64,000 bases of DNA from Taibaiella lutea. Lineage in GTDB: Bacteria; Bacteroidota; Bacteroidia; Chitinophagales; Chitinophagaceae. The notes beneath the pieces were generated by a model that did no database searches, was not told where the DNA came from, and was given only the letters and a program-made list of their open reading frames with translations. The stretch covers positions 713,410 to 777,409 of the forward strand of contig NZ_VWSH01000002.1 of NCBI RefSeq assembly GCF_008629695.1, written 5' to 3'. Below, one piece after another: positions 5,383 through 61,121 of the stretch (its first letter is position 1; the number at the start of each line of letters is the position of its first letter). The translations under genes were made by a program, and so were the position numbers.

Positions 5383-7053
5383 TCAATCAGGGTTGTTAAG
5401 TTTCCAATGTTCATATCTTTCTTTTCTTTTTTTTGCAGAAGAATGATATTGTTGATTCTCTATTCTTACATCATTAATTGTAAGATAGCTGTTGGGAAAT
5501 TTGTCAATAATTTTTTGTTTATTTTCAGGTGTTAGGTCACGGCAATCAATATTTATTCTATCTATTATTTTATTTGCAAATGACTCAGGTATGACTACCT
5601 CTTTGCCTGATATGTAAAGGTCAACATATTTCCAATGTTCTTGCGAAATCTTATCAATAGTATAAAACCCATAATCCGTTTTATTGCCAAATTCTGAATG
5701 AATTAAGTGGTTGCTGGTGCTAACAATTGTATAAGGAAATAATGAATCAATTTTATTGAGTTCCTTTTCACTAATATCCCCTTCAAGTGAAAGGTAGCTT
5801 ATGTCTATAAGTGAAAGTTCTGCCGGAATTTTGATGGAATCAATAAATTCAACCGATAAACTATTGATTCTTGGTAGTTTTAAAATTTCTCCCGGTATTT
5901 CACTGACTCTGATACGTATTTCACTATTATATTCCTGATCATGTGCAATTTGTGAGGCATATTTATCTGATGTATCTTTAGGCATTACTAACCAGCCGAT
6001 TTGTGGTTCCAGGGCCTGTGTTTTATGATTTTGCTTTAATCCAAAAAAACCGGCAACAAATTGCATCGGAAAAGTTTTTGAATGTCCGTCAGGATATAAA
6101 TCAATCCTTTTAAAATCCACAACAGCCCGTTCGTCAGGAAGGCTTTCCGAGGAGTATAGCATTTTAAAATCATTTCTTTTCCCTGTTTTGTCATAAGGAT
6201 AGAATTTAATAGCCCATCCGTCAATAATTTTAGGGGCGCCATATTCTTTTTCAGTATGATATTTAAACATGTTACGCCAAAATGCTTTATCAAACTTACC
6301 GTTGGACGCATTTATAAACTCATCTAAAATCGGGTCAAGTTCATCAATCCATCAATCTAATTTGTATTTTCTTAATGTATTTGTTTTATCTTTCAATAAT
6401 TGCCAATCTTGTGGCGTTCCTTTAATAGTTATTTCCGGAATGCCGCACATTACTCTAAGTACAATGTACTCAAAATATGGATGCATCGCCTCCATTGCAG
6501 TTATTTGAGTTGCTATTCTTTCATTTGATGTTGTAGTAGAAAAATCAGGTGTTAAATTCGCCATTAATTCTTTGCTCGTATTATCAGAAACTTGCTGAAC
6601 AAACTGAGGAATGACATTTTCCCATGTAGAAAGGCTGCTTAAAGATTGTTCGTTGCCAATTTGAACAACCAAGCTTTTTTTTCCGTCAAAATTTACAAAC
6701 ATATTGCGAAGTGCCTCTGCATTATTATTTACATGATGCGAAAATCCCTGACAAATCAGTAGCCAAATCATATCAGGAGATATTACAAATGGCCGATGTT
6801 CTGAATATGCCGTATGCACCCCATCGAAGAATGGATGTGCGAGTATATCAACCATCTTTTGGGGCATGTGGCTATGAACTATTTGTTGTGGGGCAAATTT
6901 ATCAATGACATCATTACTGTTCCATTCGGAGAGTAAATTGTCAGGCCGTTTCAATTCTTCTATTTTAAAAGTTTTTCCGGAATCTGGCTGGGCGAAAACA
7001 AAATTGGAAGCAAAAACAAAAAATGCAAAGGACAGGATAAATTGTTTTATCAT
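5383..7053 (-). pseudogene. DUF4419 protein interrupted by an in-frame TGA
   Basis: Two minus-strand frames (6352-7053, 233 aa; 5383-6270, 295 aa) are in the same phase and are separated by a single TGA at 6354-6352. Reading through gives KYKLD-stop-WIDELDPILDEFINAS and then a seamless second half (556 codons). The first half has a signal peptide ending FVFAQ and the DUF4419 core HPFFDGVHTAYSEHRPFVIS and PDMIWLLICQGFSHHV. The second half continues with PKIIDGWAIKFYPYD and ends in leucine-rich-repeat-like strands. From my knowledge of the family, a tryptophan (TGG) is expected at the stop, giving WWIDELDP. The function of DUF4419 is unknown. It is a recent nonsense mutation, a readthrough site or a sequence error. 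Confidence 0.8.
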
Positions 7054-7179: not shown

Positions 7180-10100
7180 TTATTTCACCAGCACTATTTT
7201 TTGTTTACCGAGGCTTTGTCTTTCATCTTTCAACACTTCCACAAAATACATGCCGTCACTCAGCATATTCAGGTTCAAACTGCAGCTTTTACCTGATTGC
7301 AGGTTTTGCCGTTTAATAAAGACCTTAGTTCCTGCTATGTCATAAATGTTGACCGTGACGGGACCATGTACTTCTTTAGTCAAAAGAATACTTACATTTC
7401 CTTTAGATGGTACAGGATAGCAGCGGAAAGCAATTTCCTCTTCCTGAACATCAGGTGCATGAATGCCTGTAGGTTGCAATGTAACGGTTGCTTCTGCAAC
7501 CGGTGTTTTGTGTTCCCTGTGGCCTACTGAATCGACTGCTTCAATATAAAAAGAGTATTGATGCCCGTATTCACCATGAAAAGAGGCATTATTTATAATT
7601 TTACGTGATTTTTCATAGGGCGAGTTATCTTTTGATATATAAAGGTCATAATAATACACTTGAGAGCCATTCATGTCATCCCCATTAATATTAAAACTAA
7701 TTACTGTGTCATTTTGTACAGTAGTACCTGCGATTGTTGATTCCGGTATGTGAAGATCCAATGTATTTATCCAAGGTTCTGTTTCGATAGCTTCATTATT
7801 GTCAAAAACAATACTTGCCTTATTTGAAATAATAGTTTCATCAGGCAAGTTCTCTTTTAATCCTATTGTATAATATACGAAGCCTTCGCCATTTGGTGGT
7901 ATAACATTTGGTGGCAAAAATCCACCTAATGGGTCACTCAATACTTCTCCGGTACTATCTAATGAAAAGAAGCTACAGGAAAGAACACCAGTCAAAGTAT
8001 CAAACTTTAAATTTGCGCGTATATAATTGTCAGTAGCTAATTGGTAATTTGAGGTAAACTCTTTTCTGTTCATAGGTATATAAAAACTCTTGGTTCCGAT
8101 ACCAAATCCGCCTAATGTAAATGTTGAAAAATCGAACACATTGCTGTCAAGCGTATCAATAACTACTACTTTTTGTGCAGCTAAAGTGGCACTATCCACA
8201 TTTTCGAAAAATATTGAATAATCAAGCTTTTTATCTCCTTTAATAAAATGTGCTTCACCAAATCCCGATGGACCGTATATAGCATTAGGGTCAAGTGAAG
8301 TCCTAACAGATGTATTTTTCCTATCCTCATTGCTTTCTTCTGGACAAGCTTCCTGCATCGTAATATAGGCAGAACTTATGTCAGCTAAACCTGCAGTTAT
8401 ATCATAAGCAAGTTCGACACCAAGTCCCACCGGAGTTGAAAATTCTCCTCCGCATTGAGCCGCCATTGAAGCTAAATTTTTGACTACAGAAGTTGCTGCA
8501 ACTGCGGCTTCTCCATTGCTTAATCCTCCTTGTAATAGACCGGAAATACCAATATTTGCGCCATCGAAAAGCGTTTTTAACCCTGCTGTAGCACAATCAG
8601 CAACAGGAATAGCCAATGCTACACTTGAAACAATAGTATAACCTAAAGAAATTTTTGCCTTCCAACAATCGTCTATCCAGGGGAACCATGGAGATCCCGA
8701 ATAAGGACCGGAGACACCTGCATAAATGCTCTTATTACCTAGTGAAAAATTTAGGGTAAAAGGTAAATCAACATATCCTCCGGCAGGTATGTTGTATACG
8801 ATATATTGATATAATTTTCCGTCAGTTGATACGCCGTTTGCAGTTGTCAGAGCTATATATTCTGGTATAGTGTCCGCACCGAGGGCAATTGCTGAATCAG
8901 AAAGAAGCAAAGTGTCAAGATAGGTTAGAATAACACCATTTGGTATATTTACGCTTACCATCGCAGAGCCAGCGTTTGTATTGCCATCATTATGAACCCG
9001 TACTGTATAAAAATTATCTACCAACCCACGTACCACTCCCCTGCCAAGTATTTGTGTACGTAGGCTTGGAACAAACTCTTCCAGTGTAAAACCGTTTGCA
9101 AAAATGAAAGTTGAATCCTCAGTCTGAATTTCTAAAGTGTAAATTCCTGTATTTGCATTGTGTAGGTCTACAACGCAACTATAGTAGGTTCCTTTTTCAG
9201 AAGCTAATTTATCAAATGGTTCATAAATATTCCCTACATTATCAATTAACCTGAAAACCATACCGGTATCCAGATTTCCTCCAAATACCTCAAAAATACA
9301 ATTTCCCTTACCTGACATGGTTGGAGTATAGTATTCTATGCCGGAAACACTCAGGTCAATACTATCCTCGGCATAATGACAGGAATTTTCCACTCTTTGC
9401 TTTACAGTAAAAACACCCGGATGTGGGAAATCGTGCAACGGGTTACTTACACTATCCGTTGTGCTATCGCCAAAATCCCACAAATAGTTTTGCGCATGTT
9501 TCGAAGTATCTATAAAGCTAAACGTATTCCCAAACCTCACTTTATCAAACCCAGCCACTGGTGGCAATACTGAACATATCTTCACCGTATCCGCCATATA
9601 AGTACTGTAATTGCCTGCATTGTCTTTGGTGCGGACATATAGAATATGGTCTGCTGCTGAAAGACCTGACGGGACAGTAATGGTGAAAGTAGTATCTACT
9701 TCCGGTGCAGCATTCAGCGCTACCTGTGTGCCATTTCCAAAACCGGGGTCGGTGTCAAAGAAAACCTCTGCAGAAATAATACTGTCGCTGCTGCTCCCAT
9801 CCATAATCATAAAGGAACGCGACTGGTAATGTGAATACCAGTCAGCATCATTACGTACTCTGGTATGCAAAGTGTGCAATCCCACTTGTGAACTGCTGAA
9901 GTTCAGGTGAATGGTATCGTCTATACTTCCCGCGGCAGGTGTGACAGGCAGGCTGGTCCAGGTGTTGGATGTATCCAGCGAATATTCCAGCGCCGTGATA
10001 TTGGCCATCTGGCTGTTTACCGTTCCCGATGTAAGAAAAACGGGTTTTGCTACATAGTGGCTATTCAGGTTATTAATGCTGTTGGTGCGTATATACAGCG

Positions 10101-10527
10101 TATGCAGCCCGGGCATTGCACCCGGAAACGAGAGCGTAACGGTATCATTATAGCTTTGCGTATTGGGCGGAAAAGTATAGGTATAATGCGTGCTGTTCAA
10201 TGAATCAAGAAAATAATCAAAAGCCGTGATAATAGGTTTGGCATAGTTATTGTTGCCCGATGTAAGGAAAAACTGTTTGGATTGAGACGTACTCCAGTCA
10301 CCGCTTGTATCCTTGAACCGGAAAAAAACGGTATGTACCCCAAGGCTCAGCGAAGTTGTATTGAGATGAAAAACATCATCGACGGCGGCGGCAGGCGTAA
10401 TCGCTACATAGGTAGCGTTACCCGGCCCCGGGTCGGTATCGAAGGCGTATTCCATGCCCTGTATCTGCTGTGCTTTGCTTCCTAAAGCCCAACATATACA
10501 AAGGATGGCTAAAAATATTCTTTGCAT
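7180..10527 (-). CDS. Large T9SS-secreted PKD-domain protein
   Basis: Predicted surface or secreted protein of 1115 aa. It has an N-terminal signal peptide (MQRIFLAILCICWALGSKAQ); four related modules of about 70-85 residues in the first 320 residues, each opening with a strand such as MEYAFDTDPGPGN, FDYFLDSLN, LEYSLDTSN or VFFDTDPGFGNG; a PKD domain (about 325-395, YLWDFGDSTTDS); a long beta-rich middle; and a C-terminal T9SS type A sorting domain (about 1035-1115, FRCYPVPSKGNVSI to KIVLVK). PKD and sorting domains suggest a cell-surface adhesin or scaffold; no catalytic motif is seen. It lies 26 bp downstream of the beta-helix gene, probably in one operon driven from the 11712-11742 promoter. 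Confidence 0.85.
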   Translation of the reverse strand: MQRIFLAILCICWALGSKAQQIQGMEYAFDTDPGPGNATYVAITPAAAVDDVFHLNTTSLSLGVHTVFFRFKDTSGDWSTSQSKQFFLTSGNNNYAKPIITAFDYFLDSLNSTHYTYTFPPNTQSYNDTVTLSFPGAMPGLHTLYIRTNSINNLNSHYVAKPVFLTSGTVNSQMANITALEYSLDTSNTWTSLPVTPAAGSIDDTIHLNFSSSQVGLHTLHTRVRNDADWYSHYQSRSFMIMDGSSSDSIISAEVFFDTDPGFGNGTQVALNAAPEVDTTFTITVPSGLSAADHILYVRTKDNAGNYSTYMADTVKICSVLPPVAGFDKVRFGNTFSFIDTSKHAQNYLWDFGDSTTDSVSNPLHDFPHPGVFTVKQRVENSCHYAEDSIDLSVSGIEYYTPTMSGKGNCIFEVFGGNLDTGMVFRLIDNVGNIYEPFDKLASEKGTYYSCVVDLHNANTGIYTLEIQTEDSTFIFANGFTLEEFVPSLRTQILGRGVVRGLVDNFYTVRVHNDGNTNAGSAMVSVNIPNGVILTYLDTLLLSDSAIALGADTIPEYIALTTANGVSTDGKLYQYIVYNIPAGGYVDLPFTLNFSLGNKSIYAGVSGPYSGSPWFPWIDDCWKAKISLGYTIVSSVALAIPVADCATAGLKTLFDGANIGISGLLQGGLSNGEAAVAATSVVKNLASMAAQCGGEFSTPVGLGVELAYDITAGLADISSAYITMQEACPEESNEDRKNTSVRTSLDPNAIYGPSGFGEAHFIKGDKKLDYSIFFENVDSATLAAQKVVVIDTLDSNVFDFSTFTLGGFGIGTKSFYIPMNRKEFTSNYQLATDNYIRANLKFDTLTGVLSCSFFSLDSTGEVLSDPLGGFLPPNVIPPNGEGFVYYTIGLKENLPDETIISNKASIVFDNNEAIETEPWINTLDLHIPESTIAGTTVQNDTVISFNINGDDMNGSQVYYYDLYISKDNSPYEKSRKIINNASFHGEYGHQYSFYIEAVDSVGHREHKTPVAEATVTLQPTGIHAPDVQEEEIAFRCYPVPSKGNVSILLTKEVHGPVTVNIYDIAGTKVFIKRQNLQSGKSCSLNLNMLSDGMYFVEVLKDERQSLGKQKIVLVK

Positions 10528-10553: not shown

Positions 10554-11666
10554 TTACTGGTTGGCTTTTGCCTTGATGTGCACATCAATACCGTAGCCGG
10601 TAGTACCAATGGTTGGCATCTGGATAAAGGAAATGTTCGGTATGATGCTTAGCCCTGAAATAGAGTAGGGGCTGCCGCCGCCGTACATGCCGCAATTACT
10701 GCCGCCAACACCGGCACCCAGCGCAGGGCTTCCTGCCTTATCCTGACAGATGTAATCGTAGGCATAGGCGGTACTGCCCCAATGTTGAAATAAATTTGTA
10801 ACCGCCGCATTGTTGACAGCACCATTGGTCGTATTAAAGGAGGAATCGTACATAACGTTATTTGTCATGCTGATAGTAGCGTAACTTCCGCCTACATTTG
10901 TAGCGAAATCACTGGTAGCAGGGGAGTTTAGCTTGTTGGCTATAATATTGTTCCTTACAATGAGCTCTGCCTGTGCTGTGCTGCTTGAAGAACCGCAATA
11001 AAAAGCGGTGGAGGAACTACTGTTAGTGCCGTTGTTCCATAAAAGAGTATTGAATTCTGCCGTTACGGAGCTAAGATTCGGAAAACTGCCTGAAGATGCA
11101 TTATAAACATCTATGAAATAACCATAGTTGCTCTTTTCTATCAGGTTGTTGTTGATGGTTATACCGGTAGAATAATCAATATCAATAACACCGGAAGTAT
11201 TGGCATTTTGAATCTGGCATTTGTTGATGGTATTGTTGTTGCTGCGAAGCAACTTGATACCTAACTGGCAAAAATTACTCTGGAAAAGAATGTTGTTTAC
11301 GGTGTCAAAATTTACCTGGGTGCCAAAATGCATACCGGAAATGATGGCTCCCGCAGCACCGGCTTTAATGGTAAAGTCAGCAACGGAGGCGCTCAGTCCG
11401 TCGGCTTGCGTATGCGGAGCCGGATTTTGGTTCAGGTTATAGCCAGGCCCCAGCAATACTATCTGCTTGTCGAGCACAACGGTTCCGTAAGAAGTGCCGG
11501 AACCCTGCACCAATAATACGGCACCTGTAGGTACAGTATTGATAGCGGTCTGCAGGTTGTCGAAATTGGCGGCATAATTACTATTGTTATTTACCGTAAA
11601 TATCTGGGCAGAGGCACCTATGCTAAGCATTAATGAAGCAACAATGCATGTTAATTTCTTTTGCAT
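10554..11666 (-). CDS. Secreted right-handed beta-helix protein
   Basis: Predicted secreted protein of 370 aa with a signal peptide ending GASAQ and an Asn/Ser-rich body with parallel-beta-helix signatures (NNTINKCQIQN, ITINNNLIEKSNYG, LIVRNNIIANK, ISMTNNVMYDSS) at about 20-25-residue spacing between residues 100 and 290. Such folds occur in pectate-lyase-like enzymes and adhesins; I see no catalytic residues to choose between them. Unlike its neighbour it has no recognisable C-terminal sorting domain, so it may stay periplasmic or use another route. It is the first gene of a probable two-gene operon and diverges from the histidine kinase across a 139-bp region holding a palindromic operator. 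Confidence 0.8.
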   Translation of the reverse strand: MQKKLTCIVASLMLSIGASAQIFTVNNNSNYAANFDNLQTAINTVPTGAVLLVQGSGTSYGTVVLDKQIVLLGPGYNLNQNPAPHTQADGLSASVADFTIKAGAAGAIISGMHFGTQVNFDTVNNILFQSNFCQLGIKLLRSNNNTINKCQIQNANTSGVIDIDYSTGITINNNLIEKSNYGYFIDVYNASSGSFPNLSSVTAEFNTLLWNNGTNSSSSTAFYCGSSSSTAQAELIVRNNIIANKLNSPATSDFATNVGGSYATISMTNNVMYDSSFNTTNGAVNNAAVTNLFQHWGSTAYAYDYICQDKAGSPALGAGVGGSNCGMYGGGSPYSISGLSIIPNISFIQMPTIGTTGYGIDVHIKAKANQ

Positions 11667-11711: not shown

Positions 11712-11742
11712 CAAAAGTACCGGCACGGTTCATTCTGTGCAA
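11712..11742 (-). promoter_or_regulatory. Promoter of the beta-helix/T9SS operon
   Basis: Read on the minus strand, TTG (11742-11740) is followed after 20 bp by TACTTTTG (11719-11712), a consensus -33/-7 pair. The -33 TTG overlaps the edge of the 20-bp palindrome at 11741-11760. The -7 element starts 31.5 bp from the palindrome centre. Confidence 0.65.
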
Positions 11743-11760
11743 TAAAGCATATGCGTTATT
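11741..11760. promoter_or_regulatory. Palindromic operator shared by divergent promoters
   Basis: AATAAAGCATATGCGTTATT is a 20-bp dyad with one mismatched pair. It lies midway between the divergent -7 elements at 11719-11712 (minus) and 11781-11788 (plus), with its centre 31.5 and 30.5 bp from them. A perfect version of the same dyad lies at 14453-14472. The likely binding protein (inference) is the LuxR-type regulator encoded at 13739-14404. Confidence 0.6.
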
Positions 11761-11780
11761 TTTTTATAATCTACATGCAT

Positions 11781-11788
11781 TATTTTTG
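11781..11788 (+). promoter_or_regulatory. -7 element of the kinase/regulator operon
   Basis: TATTTTTG matches TAnnTTTG and lies 17 bp before the kinase ATG. The -33 position reads TTT, not TTG, at the edge of the palindrome, suggesting a weak promoter that would need activation. Confidence 0.5.
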
Positions 11789-11805
11789 CATGAAAGGTAT
11801 TGCTG

Positions 11806-13728
11806 ATGCGGATATATTGGACCTTAATATTAAGTTGTGTATTGACTATTAGTTTTGGGCAAACGAGTAAGTTGAACGGCCTGAAGAAAGCGCTGAAAGA
11901 AACATCTGATGCCCGCCGGCAGGCAGTTTTATTGAACGACATATGCCGGCAGCATTATTCCATTCCCTCCGGTCAGCTGTTGCATTATTCTGACAGGCTT
12001 AAAATGCTAAGTAGCACACAGGCTATGGACTCTTTCGGGATGTATGCGGATTATTACAGAGCGCTCTATTATACCGGACAAGGCATGTCGGATTCAGCAC
12101 TGGCCATTATTGGCCAATATGCTAAAACAAAAGGCTTGACGCAACAATTGTTTTTTGATTTCGAAGCACTTAAGTTTGATAATTACCGGCTGAAAGACAG
12201 GCAAGAGGCTGCATTCAGGCAGGCATTATATCTGTTGAATCTGGCAGGGAAAAGCAATATCGCCGGCCAGAAAATAACGGCAGCCTTAAGCACGGCCATT
12301 CAATATCGCTATTTGAATGTACAGGAAAGCTACTTAAGCAATTTATATAAAGCGGCTTTTGTGGGCGGAAATATAGATGCTTATCCCGCGGAAAAAGCGG
12401 AAGCCAATATATTCAAATGGCTGGCTGTTTATTACGATGAACATGAGGTAATTCCTGATTCCTTTAATTTTTATCTTGATAAAGCCATTGAGGTAGCCCT
12501 TAAGTCAGAAAATCTTGCATCACTCGCGCAGGCTTACAACTGGCGTGCCAATACTTTGGTGCGGCGGTTTGAGACCAAAGTGGCCGAACCTTATATTTAT
12601 AAAAGTGATAGCTTATTTACATTACTGGACGACAGAAGATACGACCATCAACGCTTTCTGTTGAAATATGATTATTATCAGGTTACCAACCGTATAGATA
12701 AGGCTATAGCTCTGGCCAAAGCCGAAATAGAAAAGGAGCGGAGGCGGCCTACGGGAAGGCTGGCGAGACTTTATAATACATTACGTATTACTTACGATGA
12801 ACAAAACGATGATAAGAACCATGCCGCTTATGCCGATTCGCTGATTTATGCACTGGTCGACAGATATGAAGAAACAAGCGCTGCTGAACGCGCTGATTAT
12901 GAAGCACAATACAAGACTAAGGAAAGAGAATTAGCATTGATACAAAGCCGGCTGAATGCAGCCCGGGAAAAAAATATACGTTACCTGTACATGGCTGTTT
13001 TTACAATTGTGGTTTTTATAGCGTTGTTTTCATTCTTTAATTATAAAAAGCAACAAAAGAAACGGCTGGCTAATTTACTGAATGCAGAAGCTCTGGAGAA
13101 AGAAGCTGCAATACAACAAGCCAAAGAGAAGGAGCGCAACCGCATCAGCAAAGAACTGCATGATAATATCGGTGCACAGCTAAGCTATATCCGCAGTAAT
13201 ATCAATTTTCTGAAAGAAGCCCCGGCCGGTTTAAGTAACGAAACAAAGCTTGATTTTCTTGATAAAATTGAAAGCACCAGCCAAACAGCTATTTCGGACC
13301 TAAGAGAAACGATTTGGGTGCTGCATAAAGACTTCGTTCATTTTGAAGAGTTGGCGGATAAATTGAAGGCACATATTGAAAGGCGGTTAGACAAAAATAT
13401 CAGCTTAACGGTAGAAGAAGATATCGCATGCCAATGGCAGATGAGTTCGGTAGCCGCCTTGAACATACTGCGTATTTTTCAGGAGGCATTGACTAACACG
13501 CTTAAATATGCACAGGCAAGGGAAATTATTCTGACCATCATTTCTCCAAAACCTGAAATATTTGAAATCAGGTTGAGGGATGATGGTATAGGTTTTGTAA
13601 GCCAAAACAATCAAAAAAAGAATCATTATGGCTTATCGAATATGCAGGAAAGGGCACAGGATTTTAAATATATTTTCAATATAGAATCAGTACCGGATAA
13701 CGGAACGGAAGTTATTTTAACAAGCTAA
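11806..13728 (+). CDS. Sensor histidine kinase, HisKA_3 (NarL-system) type
   Basis: Membrane sensor kinase of 640 aa for the response regulator that follows 10 bp later. I chose the ATG at 11806, preceded by AAAGG, over a TTG six bases upstream. Order: signal peptide (ending SFGQ); a helical, TPR-like periplasmic region (about 20-375); a membrane segment (about 395-415, YLYMAVFTIVVFIALFSFF); a coiled coil; the HisKA_3 dimerisation domain with phospho-acceptor H452 in KELHDNIGAQLSYI; and a HATPase domain with FQEALTNTLKYA, LRDDGIGF and YGLSNMQERA. All kinase boxes look intact. The signal is unknown. It is flanked by genes for secreted proteins and is probably self-regulated through the palindrome at 11741. 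Confidence 0.9.
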   Translation: MRIYWTLILSCVLTISFGQTSKLNGLKKALKETSDARRQAVLLNDICRQHYSIPSGQLLHYSDRLKMLSSTQAMDSFGMYADYYRALYYTGQGMSDSALAIIGQYAKTKGLTQQLFFDFEALKFDNYRLKDRQEAAFRQALYLLNLAGKSNIAGQKITAALSTAIQYRYLNVQESYLSNLYKAAFVGGNIDAYPAEKAEANIFKWLAVYYDEHEVIPDSFNFYLDKAIEVALKSENLASLAQAYNWRANTLVRRFETKVAEPYIYKSDSLFTLLDDRRYDHQRFLLKYDYYQVTNRIDKAIALAKAEIEKERRRPTGRLARLYNTLRITYDEQNDDKNHAAYADSLIYALVDRYEETSAAERADYEAQYKTKERELALIQSRLNAAREKNIRYLYMAVFTIVVFIALFSFFNYKKQQKKRLANLLNAEALEKEAAIQQAKEKERNRISKELHDNIGAQLSYIRSNINFLKEAPAGLSNETKLDFLDKIESTSQTAISDLRETIWVLHKDFVHFEELADKLKAHIERRLDKNISLTVEEDIACQWQMSSVAALNILRIFQEALTNTLKYAQAREIILTIISPKPEIFEIRLRDDGIGFVSQNNQKKNHYGLSNMQERAQDFKYIFNIESVPDNGTEVILTS

Positions 13729-13738
13729 AACTTTATCT

Positions 13739-14404
13739 ATGAACTTGAAAATTGCCATAGTGGACGATAACAGGCGCAATCGTTATTCGCTTGCAGAACA
13801 GTTAAGAATCAGCGCAGGGATAGCAGTAATATTGCAGGCCGGGGATGGCGGCGATTATTTGGAACAAATGAAGGTACTGGAACCGGAACAATATCCCGAT
13901 GTAGTGTTGATGGATATAGAAATGCCGGGCATGAATGGCATTGATACAGTAAGAAATAGTAAAACGCTTTATCCTTCTGTAAAATACCTGATGCTCACTG
14001 TATTTGATGACGATGACAAAATATTTGAAGCTATCCGTGCCGGTGCCAATGGCTACCTGCTTAAGGATGAAAAACCAATGGCCATTATTGAATGTATTCA
14101 ACAATTAGCCGAACTGGATGCGGCTCCTATGAGTCCTTCCATTGCACGTAAAACCCTTGCGTTATTGTCGCAGGCTACCTTAGTTACTTCTGTTGATAAA
14201 CCGGCTTCTGTGCAGCTATTATCCGAAAGAGAATTGGAGGTATTGAAACAAATGGCTATAGGCAAAGATTATAAACAAATTGCAGCAACCTTATTCTTAA
14301 GCACCCATACCATTCGAAAGCATATTGCTAATATTTATGAAAAATTACACGTTACTTCAAAAATACAGGCCGTCAATATTGCACAAAAAAATAATTGGGT
14401 TTAG
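13739..14404 (+). CDS. LuxR/NarL-family response regulator
   Basis: DNA-binding partner of the upstream kinase, 221 aa. The receiver domain (1-120) has the acidic pair D9/D10, phospho-acceptor D59 in VVLMDIEMPG and K107 in YLLKDE. The C-terminal LuxR-type helix-turn-helix (about 155-215) contains LSERELEVLKQMA and STHTIRKHIANIYEKL. Proteins of this family bind palindromic sites as dimers. The two matching 20-bp dyads at 11741 and 14453, placed alike relative to three promoters, are the obvious candidates (inference). Confidence 0.92.
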   Translation: MNLKIAIVDDNRRNRYSLAEQLRISAGIAVILQAGDGGDYLEQMKVLEPEQYPDVVLMDIEMPGMNGIDTVRNSKTLYPSVKYLMLTVFDDDDKIFEAIRAGANGYLLKDEKPMAIIECIQQLAELDAAPMSPSIARKTLALLSQATLVTSVDKPASVQLLSERELEVLKQMAIGKDYKQIAATLFLSTHTIRKHIANIYEKLHVTSKIQAVNIAQKNNWV

Positions 14405-14452
14405 TGCCTGAAAGCTGTATTGTTGAAATTTTGTTCATCGCCTTCTCGCCGG

Positions 14453-14472
14453 AATAACACATATGTGTTATT
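14453..14472. promoter_or_regulatory. Perfect 20-bp palindromic operator
   Basis: AATAACACATATGTGTTATT is a perfect dyad upstream of the 789-aa T9SS gene, centred 31.5 bp before the -7 element at 14494. It is the same motif as 11741-11760 (17 of 20 bases identical). Confidence 0.65.
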
Positions 14473-14501
14473 GTACCAATTACAATAACAGAATAGTTTT
14501 G
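14471..14501 (+). promoter_or_regulatory. Promoter of the 789-aa T9SS gene
   Basis: TTG (14471-14473), 20 bp, then TAGTTTTG (14494-14501). The -33 element overlaps the end of the palindrome. The ATG follows at 14535. Confidence 0.65.
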
Positions 14502-14534: not shown

Positions 14535-16904
14535 ATGAAACATTTTTATCTGTTATTGTTTTTCTTGTTAGCAGGAGCTGGCTTTTTTACTGCAAGCGGC
14601 GCGCCTGTAAACGATGATTGTTCCGGTGCACTGCCCTTAACTATGAATGTTGAGGTTACCGACAATACGCTTACCGCTACTGCTTCCGTACCTGTACCCG
14701 CCTGTGGCACTGCAAATGCAGATGTTTGGTATAGCTTCCAGGCTCCCGTGTCCGATTTATATCTCATTGCAAAAGACGTAAGTGCAGGCTCGGTTTCTGT
14801 TTATTCCGGCAGCTGTGCCGGGCTTTCCCTCCTGCAGTGCAAACCTCTGTCAGGCTATTCTGCAACTCCGATCTCCCTCACAGGATTATCTGTCGGCAAT
14901 ACTTATTTTGTCCGTATTGTTTCGTCTTATTCATTTTCGTTGCAACTAAAAGAACAGAATATCATAACATCGATGCAAAGCGGTAATTGGAACGATGCTT
15001 CCACTTGGGTTGGGGGCGTTGTTCCTTCTTTGGTAGATACAGCAATAATTGCCGGAAATCATACTGTAACAATTGCGGCCACTGCTGAAGCAGGAAAGGT
15101 TATCGTTCAGGCAAATGGTAATATTACGCTCAATGATTTTCTTGTTGTACATGATTCTTTGAATAATATGGGAACAATCAATGGTGGAGGGCACATTGGT
15201 TTTGGTGGTTTTGGAGATACGGGGCCTGTTTGCTTTTTAAACTCCGGAAATGTGAATCTGAATGCTGCTACAGGTGACCCCGGCATATCGGTTTACAGTA
15301 CCGGAGGATTGAAGATATTGCTGGATGATATTACAGGTGTGAATAATTTCAACATCAAAACTATTTATCCCGACAATGGTTCGGTTACCGTAAAGAACCG
15401 GAATACGGATGTTGCAACTTTACAGGTACATCGTATCAATAAAAATTCTTTTGACGATGTGCCGGTGAACTTCGTGCTGGAGGATGCCGTTAAGCTGAAA
15501 ATTTCAGGAAATATTACATTCAATCAGGGGATGAGCAGCTTTATAGATACTTTTTCTGTTGCGCCTACGTCATCAATTATTTTTTCCGGTTATGATAATC
15601 AATACCTTACAGTTACCAATGGTGTTTTTATAAATACAGGGACGCTTAAAACGGAGTTATCCGATACATTATTCATAAAAATGACAAACCCGCCGGGCGC
15701 CAATCCTGTATTGGCCGATTCATTATTTGAAATCTCCGAATATTCGGTAGTGAGCTTTGACAATGAAAATCTATATCAATGCAGGAATATTACTTATTAT
15801 AATGATGGATTGCAATACGCCAAGGTACTGTTGAATAACAGCGACCTGAAAGTTTTACAAAATTCGGTAATAAACCAGTTTAGCCTGGTTGGGGGCGGTG
15901 GCGGAGGTTTTATTCCTTTTAATTTGTTCTACACAAACGGCAGCGGAGGCCTGATTCGTTATGTAACCAACACGCCTGTTGACTATCCTGTTTATACATC
16001 CATGGAAAAGCCGGCAACAGTAAAAATCACTAATTCAGGCACCGGAGATTGGATAAAAGTTATTGCAAGAGACAGTTGCCGCACAAACGGAACTTCGGGC
16101 CCGGCCATCACGGATAGCGTAGTTAATCAAACCTGGCATATAACAGAAGCAGTCAATGGTGGCTCGAATCTTACCCTGGCTTTCTATTGGTCTGCCGGCA
16201 ATCATACTGCCGGCTTTAATACTTCTCAATGCGCAATAAGCCATTATACAAATGGCGCCTGGGATGTTTCTCCGGCATTGGTGATGGCCAACTACGATAA
16301 TGCAACAGGGTGGTATTACGTTTCAAGAAACAATATCACTTCGCTTTCGCCGTTCAGGGTAAGTTCGGCCACGAGTGTTCCTTTGCCTTTGACAAGTATG
16401 AAACTTACAGCAGCAGCGGTAAGTAATTCAGAAATAAGTTTAGCAACAGAGGTTATAACAGATAAAGATATAATTGTAGTACTGGAGTATTTATCGGCCG
16501 GGAAATGGCAGGACCTGACTACTTTGCAGTTTAGTACAATGAACCGCCAATTCACCTATTTTCATAATGGGCTCAACAAAGGAAATCATCAATATCGTTT
16601 GCATGCCATTGATAACAGAGGTGCATCACATTACAGCCATATTGCTTCCGTAAACTTGCCGGGTAGTAACGACGGAGCATTACGGGTTTATCCTAATCCG
16701 GCACATACAATGCTTTTCTTTAGTTGTCCGGCAATACCTGATGAAATTAAATGGATTACAGTAACTGACCTGAGTGGTAAAACTATTGCGGAATGTAATA
16801 ATTGTACTTCATTTGAAGTAGCAAAATGGCCTGCAGGTATTTATTTTCTGAGTGTGGAAGATAAATATGGTATTTCGAAGATTAAGTTTGTTGTAAGCAA
16901 ATGA
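14535..16904 (+). CDS. T9SS-secreted surface protein
   Basis: Predicted secreted or surface-anchored protein of 789 aa. It has a signal peptide (ending TASGAP); an N-terminal Ig-like/PPC-like beta domain (about 25-140, NDDCSGALPLTM to GNTYFVRIVSSYSFSLQLKE); a stretch typical of Bacteroidota secreted proteins (SGNWNDASTWVGGVVPS near 155); a large beta-rich middle; and a C-terminal T9SS type A sorting domain (about 712-789, LRVYPNPAHTMLFF to KIKFVVSK). No enzyme motif is recognised. It follows the kinase/regulator pair with its own promoter carrying the perfect palindrome, so it is the best candidate target of that pair. Confidence 0.85.
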   Translation: MKHFYLLLFFLLAGAGFFTASGAPVNDDCSGALPLTMNVEVTDNTLTATASVPVPACGTANADVWYSFQAPVSDLYLIAKDVSAGSVSVYSGSCAGLSLLQCKPLSGYSATPISLTGLSVGNTYFVRIVSSYSFSLQLKEQNIITSMQSGNWNDASTWVGGVVPSLVDTAIIAGNHTVTIAATAEAGKVIVQANGNITLNDFLVVHDSLNNMGTINGGGHIGFGGFGDTGPVCFLNSGNVNLNAATGDPGISVYSTGGLKILLDDITGVNNFNIKTIYPDNGSVTVKNRNTDVATLQVHRINKNSFDDVPVNFVLEDAVKLKISGNITFNQGMSSFIDTFSVAPTSSIIFSGYDNQYLTVTNGVFINTGTLKTELSDTLFIKMTNPPGANPVLADSLFEISEYSVVSFDNENLYQCRNITYYNDGLQYAKVLLNNSDLKVLQNSVINQFSLVGGGGGGFIPFNLFYTNGSGGLIRYVTNTPVDYPVYTSMEKPATVKITNSGTGDWIKVIARDSCRTNGTSGPAITDSVVNQTWHITEAVNGGSNLTLAFYWSAGNHTAGFNTSQCAISHYTNGAWDVSPALVMANYDNATGWYYVSRNNITSLSPFRVSSATSVPLPLTSMKLTAAAVSNSEISLATEVITDKDIIVVLEYLSAGKWQDLTTLQFSTMNRQFTYFHNGLNKGNHQYRLHAIDNRGASHYSHIASVNLPGSNDGALRVYPNPAHTMLFFSCPAIPDEIKWITVTDLSGKTIAECNNCTSFEVAKWPAGIYFLSVEDKYGISKIKFVVSK

Positions 16905-59660: not shown

Positions 59661-60308
59661 TTATTTCACAATCCCGTTTTTCATAGCATACATCACCAAA
59701 CCTACACGGGTTTTAATCTGTAATTTTTCGCAAATCTTTTCACGATGATTTTCTACTGTTTTGGGACTAAGGTTCATTTTATCGGCAATTTCTTTATAAG
59801 TCATTTCGCTTGCCATATATTTCAGTAATTCCATTTCCCTTTCAGAAAGAACTGATGCATTCTTTTGCTCGTTTTCTTTGTCGTTTATCAGCAAAGAAAT
59901 TTGCCGTGCCACCATGGGCGTATAATAGTAGCCGTTATCCTTCGTTTCCTGAATAGCTTTTATTAATTCCGACGGTTCTGTGTCTTTTAGCAAATAACCT
60001 TTCGCGCCACGTCTCAACATGCGTATAATACATTCCTCGCTGTCATACATCGAAAGCGCAATCACCTTTACCGAAGGGTAATGCTTATATAACCATTCCG
60101 TTGCATCATAACCATCCATCAATGGCATATTGATGTCCATTAAAACTACATCGGGCAACAGTTGTGATTTTATTTTTTTCTGAAGGTCTATGCCATTATC
60201 CGCCTCAAATACTACTTTAAAATTAGGGTTGCTTTTTATGAAATTGCTCAGGCCGTTTCGCAACAGCTTGTGATCATCTACCAAAGCAACCGATATTGTT
60301 TCACTCAT
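59661..60308 (-). CDS. LuxR/NarL-family response regulator
   Basis: DNA-binding partner of the kinase encoded 9 bp upstream, 215 aa. The receiver domain has D11/D12 in LVDDHKLL, phospho-acceptor D58 in VVLMDINMPLMDG and K106 in GYLLKDTEPSE. The LuxR helix-turn-helix (about 150-210) contains LSEREMELLKYMASEMTYKE and LSPKTVENHREKICEKL. Targets unknown. Confidence 0.93.
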   Translation of the reverse strand: MSETISVALVDDHKLLRNGLSNFIKSNPNFKVVFEADNGIDLQKKIKSQLLPDVVLMDINMPLMDGYDATEWLYKHYPSVKVIALSMYDSEECIIRMLRRGAKGYLLKDTEPSELIKAIQETKDNGYYYTPMVARQISLLINDKENEQKNASVLSEREMELLKYMASEMTYKEIADKMNLSPKTVENHREKICEKLQIKTRVGLVMYAMKNGIVK

Positions 60309-60317
60309 GGTTATAGT

Positions 60318-61121
60318 TTATTCTGCATTTATATCAATGTCCCGCGTAAGCGTAATGGATAGGGTGGTGCCGGTTCCCGGCTTGCTTTCAATATTAAATT
60401 TGCTGTCAATCATTGCTGAGCGTTGTTTGATGTTCATCAGGCCAATGCCATCCCGTGTTTTTTCAATGTCAAATCCGTTACCATTGTCAGTGATTTTTAT
60501 ATCAAGACGGTTATCGGTATAACTCATATCAATCACAATATGGGTTGCTCCCGCATGTTTCACAATATTGTTTAGGCTTTCCTGAATAATACGGTATAAG
60601 ATAAGCCTCCTTTCCGCCTTAATGAAAAACGGAGTTCCGTTGATAGTAAAGTCTGCAGAAAATTTGCGGGTCCTGCGCAACATAGCCAGCTCACGGTCAA
60701 TCGATTCCTTAATGTCTTTTTCTTTTACGTATTCGGTATTCAATGTTTTTGAAATATCCCTTAAATCGTTAATAGCAATATTCAATAAATTCTTTGTCTG
60801 GGAAACCATTTCATTGCTTTCAGTATCGATACTATTCATTTCTATGACTGACATATTTAGCTTCGCCAGACTCAAAACCTGACCGATATTATCATGCAGT
60901 TCCTGAGAAAGGCTGTGGAATGTTTGTTCCTGCGTTTCCAGTTGCGCCTGCAATAATTCTTTCCTGAAATTCTCTTCCAAAATTAATTTCTGATTAAAGT
61001 ATTCCTGTTGTTTTCTCCGGTAAATAATAATTAGAAAAATGAGCGTGATACCCAAGAAGATGAATATCGCGGAACCGCCCAGAATAGCTATGGCAATTTC
61101 ATTGGATTGCTGATGGTGCAC
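60318..61121 (-). CDS. Sensor histidine kinase, HisKA_3 type
   Basis: Compact one-pass kinase (267 aa): one membrane segment (about 8-33, IAIAILGGSAIFIFLGITLIF), a coiled coil (35-68), the HisKA_3 domain with H76 in SQELHDNIGQVLSLAKL, and a HATPase domain with IIQESLNNIVKHAG, ITDNGNGFD and GIGLMNIKQRSAM. It has no periplasmic sensor domain, so it probably senses the membrane state, a partner protein or an internal signal. Its regulator follows by 9 bp. Confidence 0.92.
   Translation of the reverse strand: MHHQQSNEIAIAILGGSAIFIFLGITLIFLIIIYRRKQQEYFNQKLILEENFRKELLQAQLETQEQTFHSLSQELHDNIGQVLSLAKLNMSVIEMNSIDTESNEMVSQTKNLLNIAINDLRDISKTLNTEYVKEKDIKESIDRELAMLRRTRKFSADFTINGTPFFIKAERRLILYRIIQESLNNIVKHAGATHIVIDMSYTDNRLDIKITDNGNGFDIEKTRDGIGLMNIKQRSAMIDSKFNIESKPGTGTTLSITLTRDIDINAE

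Follow-up and report, generated by a model that had tools for sequence, protein, structure and literature searches.

One 20-bp dyad recurs at three promoters around a sensor kinase and a response regulator, and the locus raises the question of whether the dyad is the operator of this pair and which genes the pair might control. Our answer is that the dyad is very probably the landing site by which the sensor and regulator of the cluster would switch on neighbouring surface proteins, since related species have such a dyad at a fixed distance from their promoters. The window in what follows is the whole 64-kb stretch of DNA that was analysed.

The gene cluster and its dyads

The sensor histidine kinase (11800..13728, + strand; start at ATG 11806 or TTG 11800) has a signal sequence, a TPR solenoid and a membrane helix, followed by HisKA_3 (PF07730, 1.2e-10) and HATPase_c (PF02518, 3.9e-06, 27.7 bits against a cut-off of 26.4). 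That its sensor part is TPR-like, as the first-pass annotation proposed, is supported by the predicted structure; a Foldseek search with the sensor model gave, among the matches listed, kinase cores only. The NarL/FixJ-type response regulator that follows (13739..14404, +), the proposed binder of the dyads, consists of a receiver and a GerE HTH (PF00072, 2e-22, and PF00196, 8.9e-18, both above cut-off), and its nearest solved structures by sequence include VraR (E 8.2e-26) and NarL (6.7e-22). Downstream lies the gene of a 789-aa exported protein (14535..16904, +) with GBD_T9SS_assoc and Por_Secre_tail domains. On the other side, divergently oriented, a 370-aa protein with a signal peptide (10554..11666, -) is followed after a 26-bp gap by the second gene of the operon, which encodes a 1115-aa T9SS cargo protein (7180..10527, -) with PKD, DUF7619 and Por_Secre_tail. 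The Por_Secre_tail matches of the 789-aa and 1115-aa proteins are above cut-off in both Pfam and NCBIfam, while the 370-aa protein, for which "beta-helix" is the label of the earlier annotation, has no Pfam or NCBIfam match at E 1e-3, and so no Por_Secre_tail. Beyond the cluster, two adjoining ORFs at 5383-7053 (-) match positions 1-155 and 193-303 of the DUF4419 profile, and this gene looks split or frame-shifted.

Dyad 1 (11741..11760, assigned to neither strand) has one mismatched pair and is predicted to be an operator common to the divergent kinase and beta-helix promoters; dyad 2 (14453..14472, +) is a perfect 20-bp palindrome 5' of the gene for the 789-aa T9SS protein and after the regulator stop codon, with no loop and no G+C-rich stem. 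The two had been described as versions of one dyad and both were found where they had been placed, together with all three TAnnTTTG -7 elements reported at 30.5-31.5 bp from the dyad centres. Measured from dyad centre to first base, these are TATTTTTG of the kinase-regulator operon (11781..11788, +) at 30.5 bp, TACTTTTG of the beta-helix/T9SS operon (11719-11712, -) at 31.5 bp and TAGTTTTG of the 789-aa gene (14494..14501, +) at 31.5 bp. The geometry had been called identical at the three promoters, which stands for the two at 31.5 bp; the kinase promoter, at 30.5 bp, departs from what proved to be the cross-species norm of 31.5. The dyad overlaps the -33 region at all three promoters, giving, as described earlier, TTATTG at two and TTATTT at the kinase promoter; a full TTTG -33 is not supplied by the dyad itself.

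Rarity of the dyad and the role of chance

In the whole genome of 4,270,588 bases the exact form AATAANNCATATGNNTTATT occurs twice, both times as the window dyads, and its reversed control does not occur. With at most two mismatches there are 12 sites genome-wide against 3 for the reversed control. For the 10 extra loose sites, at least 7 of which lie inside ORFs, the -7 element at the right distance was never better than 4/6, and we rejected them as regulon members since none has an adequate -7 element there. Frequent occurrence without promoters had been named beforehand as an outcome that would tell against the proposal; the dyad is rare, with its exact form found only twice and its loose matches lacking the -7 element. 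The claim does depend on the exact form, because the pattern with up to three mismatches is not enriched in the 64-kb window (4 found against 2.04 expected, and 15 of 100 shuffles as high). One three-mismatch candidate for a second site, at 11765-11784, was dropped with a PWM score of -3.0. TAnnTTTG occurs 89 times on both strands of the 64 kb, and from that rate three exact -7 matches within the three allowed offsets would have a probability of about 9e-9, a post hoc figure that ignores the A+T-rich nature of promoters. Comparison with relatives is a better test than this estimate.

Conservation among regulator relatives

A 15-regulator alignment (A1) served as query against named genomes, and the relatives used here are the best 80 of the 456 that it gave; together with the window they make up 81 loci, and the closest regulator among these best 80 of 456 is 62% identical. 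Across the 81 loci (the best 80 of 456 relatives plus the window) the pattern AATAnnnCAwwTGnnnTATT has 42 sites in 25 loci, against 0-1 in each of 20 dinucleotide shuffles (mean 0.2). Examples are AATAACGCATATGTGTTATT and AATAGCGCATATGCGTTATT in locus L092, and AATACGGCATTTGTCGTATT, present three times in L139 with both orientations counted. The pattern was drawn partly from the same loci on which its sites were counted, and for that reason we ran a PWM that leaves the window out and a test of spacing, neither of which depends on that. By the PWM built without the window, dyad 1 ranks first in the window (22.9) and dyad 2 second (21.3), with the third-ranked position far below both at 7.8. The window also holds a second NarL-type regulator with a kinase (59661-61121, -), its regulator 38% identical to that at 13739-14404, and none of the eight best PWM matches of the window falls in that region.

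When a composite site was defined as a PWM dyad plus a -7 element of at least 5/6 at 31.5 +/- 1, with a score of at least 9, there were 75 such sites in the best 80 of 456 relatives plus the window, against 1.2 per 200-bp-block shuffle. By the rule of a composite site or a dyad score of at least 13, 45 of these 81 loci have a site and 36 have none, the latter including flavobacterial regulators near dyad-bearing ones. Lack of conservation in orthologous loci was another way in which the proposal had been said to be open to failure; of the 7 loci with regulators 53-62% identical (L088-L093 and L126, a count that omits L164, 58% identical, whose locus ends at a contig edge), 5 have a site 5' of the kinase or regulator, and the dyad is also present in more distant Flavobacteriia and Cytophagia loci. 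Two intergenic regions hold paired dyads 34-37 bp apart (L116, at 9882 and 9916; L146, at 11373 and 11410); the two dyads of L116 have their better -7 elements directed at different genes.

The closest relatives of the genome give a different picture. In the three congeners searched the exact motif is absent and the best-scoring kinase relatives are 24-27% identical, with no close orthologue, so that the module looks acquired or often lost in the genus. The best-scoring kinase relative in 394 family genomes is only 29% identical, and a kinase-only search of genome contigs also gave no close orthologue. Horizontal transfer is no more than suggested by the regulator tree, where a Mucilaginibacter and a Puia MAG regulator are sisters at 94. 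The window pattern with at most two mismatches was not found in the 20 loci L063-L082, with regulators at most 50% identical, and this absence, taken alone, would count against conservation. One of them, L068, has the gene layout of the window, including a homologue that matches the 1115-aa protein at 33% over 403 aa, together with a regulator that has alanine at HTH residue 178 (A178) and no dyad.

Among the best 80 of 456 relatives plus the window, tyrosine at this residue (Y178) is found in 40 of 41 dyad-bearing loci, and none of 14 A178 regulators has a dyad; Y178 also occurs in 22 of the 40 loci without a dyad in this set, and hence is no predictor alone. On a tree of 80 regulators the dyad label changes 15 times, against 26.9 when shuffled (0 of 500 as low). 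The link between HTH and dyad comprises only three independent pairs and is not significant, so that descent could explain it. The regulators of L095, L097, L100-L103, L105-L113 and L117 have A or S at HTH 178, in many cases with an SVLTVRKH-like helix, and no dyad by the rule applied for this comparison; these A/S178 regulators may use another operator.

Spacing to the -7 element

For the best 80 of 456 relatives, counted without the window, 31 of 43 site-gene cases have the first base of the -7 element precisely 31.5 bp away from the centre of the dyad, and each other offset from 26.5 to 37.5 has 0-2 of the same cases. With the window included, 33 of 46 cases fall at 31.5, 7 of them exact, and any other offset from 10.5 to 49.5 has at most 4. 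A -7 match here means TAnnTTTG with at most one mismatch, and spacing played no part in the choice of sites. In the 43 cases from the best 80 of 456, the outer TATT is followed 23 times by G and 18 times by T.

Sites of class II activators are centred near -41.5. The sigma-A -7 box of F. psychrophilum is placed at -12 to -5 in the available text of PMC9723704, and from this position the dyad centre is predicted to lie at -42.5 (kinase promoter) or -43.5, with the outer TATT(G/T) near -33. By this analogy the dyad would sit near where class II activators bind. We regard it as part of a real, conserved operator-promoter unit, which very probably belongs to a NarL-type regulator.

A scan of 296 genomes of the phylum was made with a stricter pattern, not fitted by the window's own sites, and gave 9 sites in 8 genomes, which may overlap the 80 loci, with one in the control. 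In 4 of the 8 scanned regions a regulator relative is encoded within 10 kb; its identity to regulators of the set is 51-73% in L195, L196 and L201 and only 37% in L200. The 8 regions hold 10 sites, 8 of which have a -7 element of at least 5/6 within 1 bp of 31.5 on either strand; those of L198 and L199 have no such match.

Targets and locality

In the best 80 of 456 relatives there are 86 site-gene pairs, spread over 37 loci; in 29 of the pairs, from 23 of these loci, the site lies 5' of a kinase or regulator. A further 7 sites are more than 300 bp from any gene start. An export-type N-terminus, called by a simple home-made rule, is found in 43 of the 49 remaining distinct targets that start no more than 130 bp from a site; for the other ORFs of these loci the figure is 180 of 470 (p = 2e-11; best 80 of 456). 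Por_Secre_tail is present in 6 of the 39 of these 49 targets that were scanned with Pfam (best 80 of 456), and the other scanned targets include outer-membrane barrels, DUF6252 lipoproteins, PQQ_2 and FGE-sulfatase proteins, with several without a family. T9SS cargo is a minority of the targets in relatives. The idea of a T9SS regulon would fit the window, with its two predicted Por_Secre_tail targets, and does not extend to most targets in the relatives, with 6 of 39 scanned; the earlier prediction was largely right and is more general than stated, the T9SS link being one instance.

The divergent layout, with the dyad between the kinase and another protein that is exported in most cases, recurs in L088, L089, L090, L092 and L120. 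In seven mostly flavobacterial loci (L131, L144, L148, L150, L152, L157 and L167) an ORF of 78-96 aa with one hydrophobic N-terminal stretch has its own dyad; its product may be a third component of the signal pathway. A count of the pattern over 19 complete genomes gives 62 sites, with 2-6 in each genome and 1 for the reversed control; 36 of the 62 lie in regulator loci (up to about 20 kb), a share that is inflated because 18 of the 19 genomes were picked for a site in their locus.

Proposed mechanism and alternatives

We propose, with a probability of about 0.8, that the regulator, bound to the dyad as a phosphorylated dimer, activates transcription of its own operon and of the neighbouring surface-protein genes in class II fashion. 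The TPR sensor kinase (11800-13728) would phosphorylate the NarL-type regulator (13739-14404), whose dimer would bind the 20-bp dyad at about -43, where the outer TATT(G/T) would replace or overlap the -33 of a sigma-A promoter, and the bound regulator would activate transcription by contact with RNA polymerase. Dyad 1 would serve both the divergent kinase-regulator and beta-helix/T9SS operons and dyad 2 the 789-aa T9SS gene, so that the regulon here would consist of five genes at three promoters, its own kinase and regulator included. We infer activation because the dyad would lie near the class II position and because DevR sites, in the available text of PMC3029386, likewise overlap the -35.

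The same overlap would also suit occlusion, with the regulator bound as a repressor over the -33 position, so that all three promoters would stay silent as long as the kinase signal did not change. We consider this unlikely, as the dyad lacks a full TTTG -33, which is what would be expected of activator-dependent promoters, the distance to the -7 element is kept to a single base pair, which is stricter than occlusion needs, and the comparators FimR and DevR are activators in the available parts of the papers on them. There is also a slim chance that the dyads are bound by an unlinked transcription factor, with the neighbouring regulator active at other sites. It would fit with the regulator relatives that have no dyad nearby (among the best 80 of 456), with the 4 of 8 pattern-first regions that have no close regulator relative within 10 kb, and with the same absence around four further off-locus sites of genomes G420, G423 and G424 (L203-L206); the location of 36 of 62 sites in regulator loci of 19 genomes, 18 of them chosen for such a site, argues against it, as do the A178 regulators with a dyad in 0 of 14 cases (best 80 of 456 relatives plus the window). 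That the dyads are RNA hairpins, terminators, mobile-element repeats or products of chance has a practically negligible probability. Perfect palindromes can fold into hairpins, and dyad 2 does follow a stop codon, but it has neither a loop nor a G+C-rich stem, the genome has just two copies, shuffles give 0.2 against 42 sites (best 80 of 456 relatives plus the window), and the conserved spacing to the -7 element refutes this reading in practice.

Beyond activation by the neighbouring regulator, one can envision, at somewhat less than even odds, a portable switch across the phylum, in which a TPR/propeller kinase, a NarL-type regulator and the 20-bp operator on a sigma-A promoter would move as a unit and form a small autoregulated regulon of mostly local scope, while the exported cargo under it (T9SS proteins, lipoproteins, outer-membrane barrels) would be freely swapped. 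An exported peptide or protein may then be what the TPR sensor reads, closing a loop on the state of the surface.

Comparison with known systems

Many kinase/LuxR-regulator pairs of this type are present in Bacteroidota, and for most of them, to our knowledge, target and signal are unknown. An operator with a strict spacing rule would make such regulons readable from sequence and provides a ready EMSA or reporter probe; it would link regulators of this family with proteins that are secreted or at the surface, T9SS cargo included, and the dyad-less A178 sub-clade offers a natural difference in specificity. The kind of system is already known, and no prior description of the 20-bp operator was found in the literature searched, the coverage of which was partial, with subscription journals mostly outside it.

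In the available portions of PMC1974823 and PMC11053733, FimS/FimR of Porphyromonas gingivalis, also in Bacteroidota, resembles the present pair in having a kinase with a periplasmic TPR sensor, for which the authors of the FimS study consider a polypeptide ligand possible (PMC11053733), and FimR resembles the role proposed here in binding promoter regions and activating fimbrial surface-protein genes, mfa1 directly. The targets named in those portions are fimbrial, and an operator dyad is not named there. The window kinase does not match the NCBIfam FimS equivalog model NF053520 at E 1e-3, and the kinase of L167 reaches 75.6 bits against a cut-off of 600. DevR/DosR and NarL share the receiver and GerE HTH of the NarL subfamily, and at the target promoters studied in the available text of PMC3029386 the start-proximal DevR site and the -35 element overlap; they differ in their operator, whereas here the promoter is of the Bacteroidota -33/-7 type and the sites are few per genome and many of them local. 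PorXY(-SigP), in the parts of the source available, is likewise a two-component system tied to type IX secretion and controls the secretion machinery via an ECF sigma factor (PMC4800418), and the title of PMC5005315 states that T9SS genes are not directly regulated by PorX; in the system described here, by contrast, the predicted targets are the cargo and the regulator is of the NarL type.
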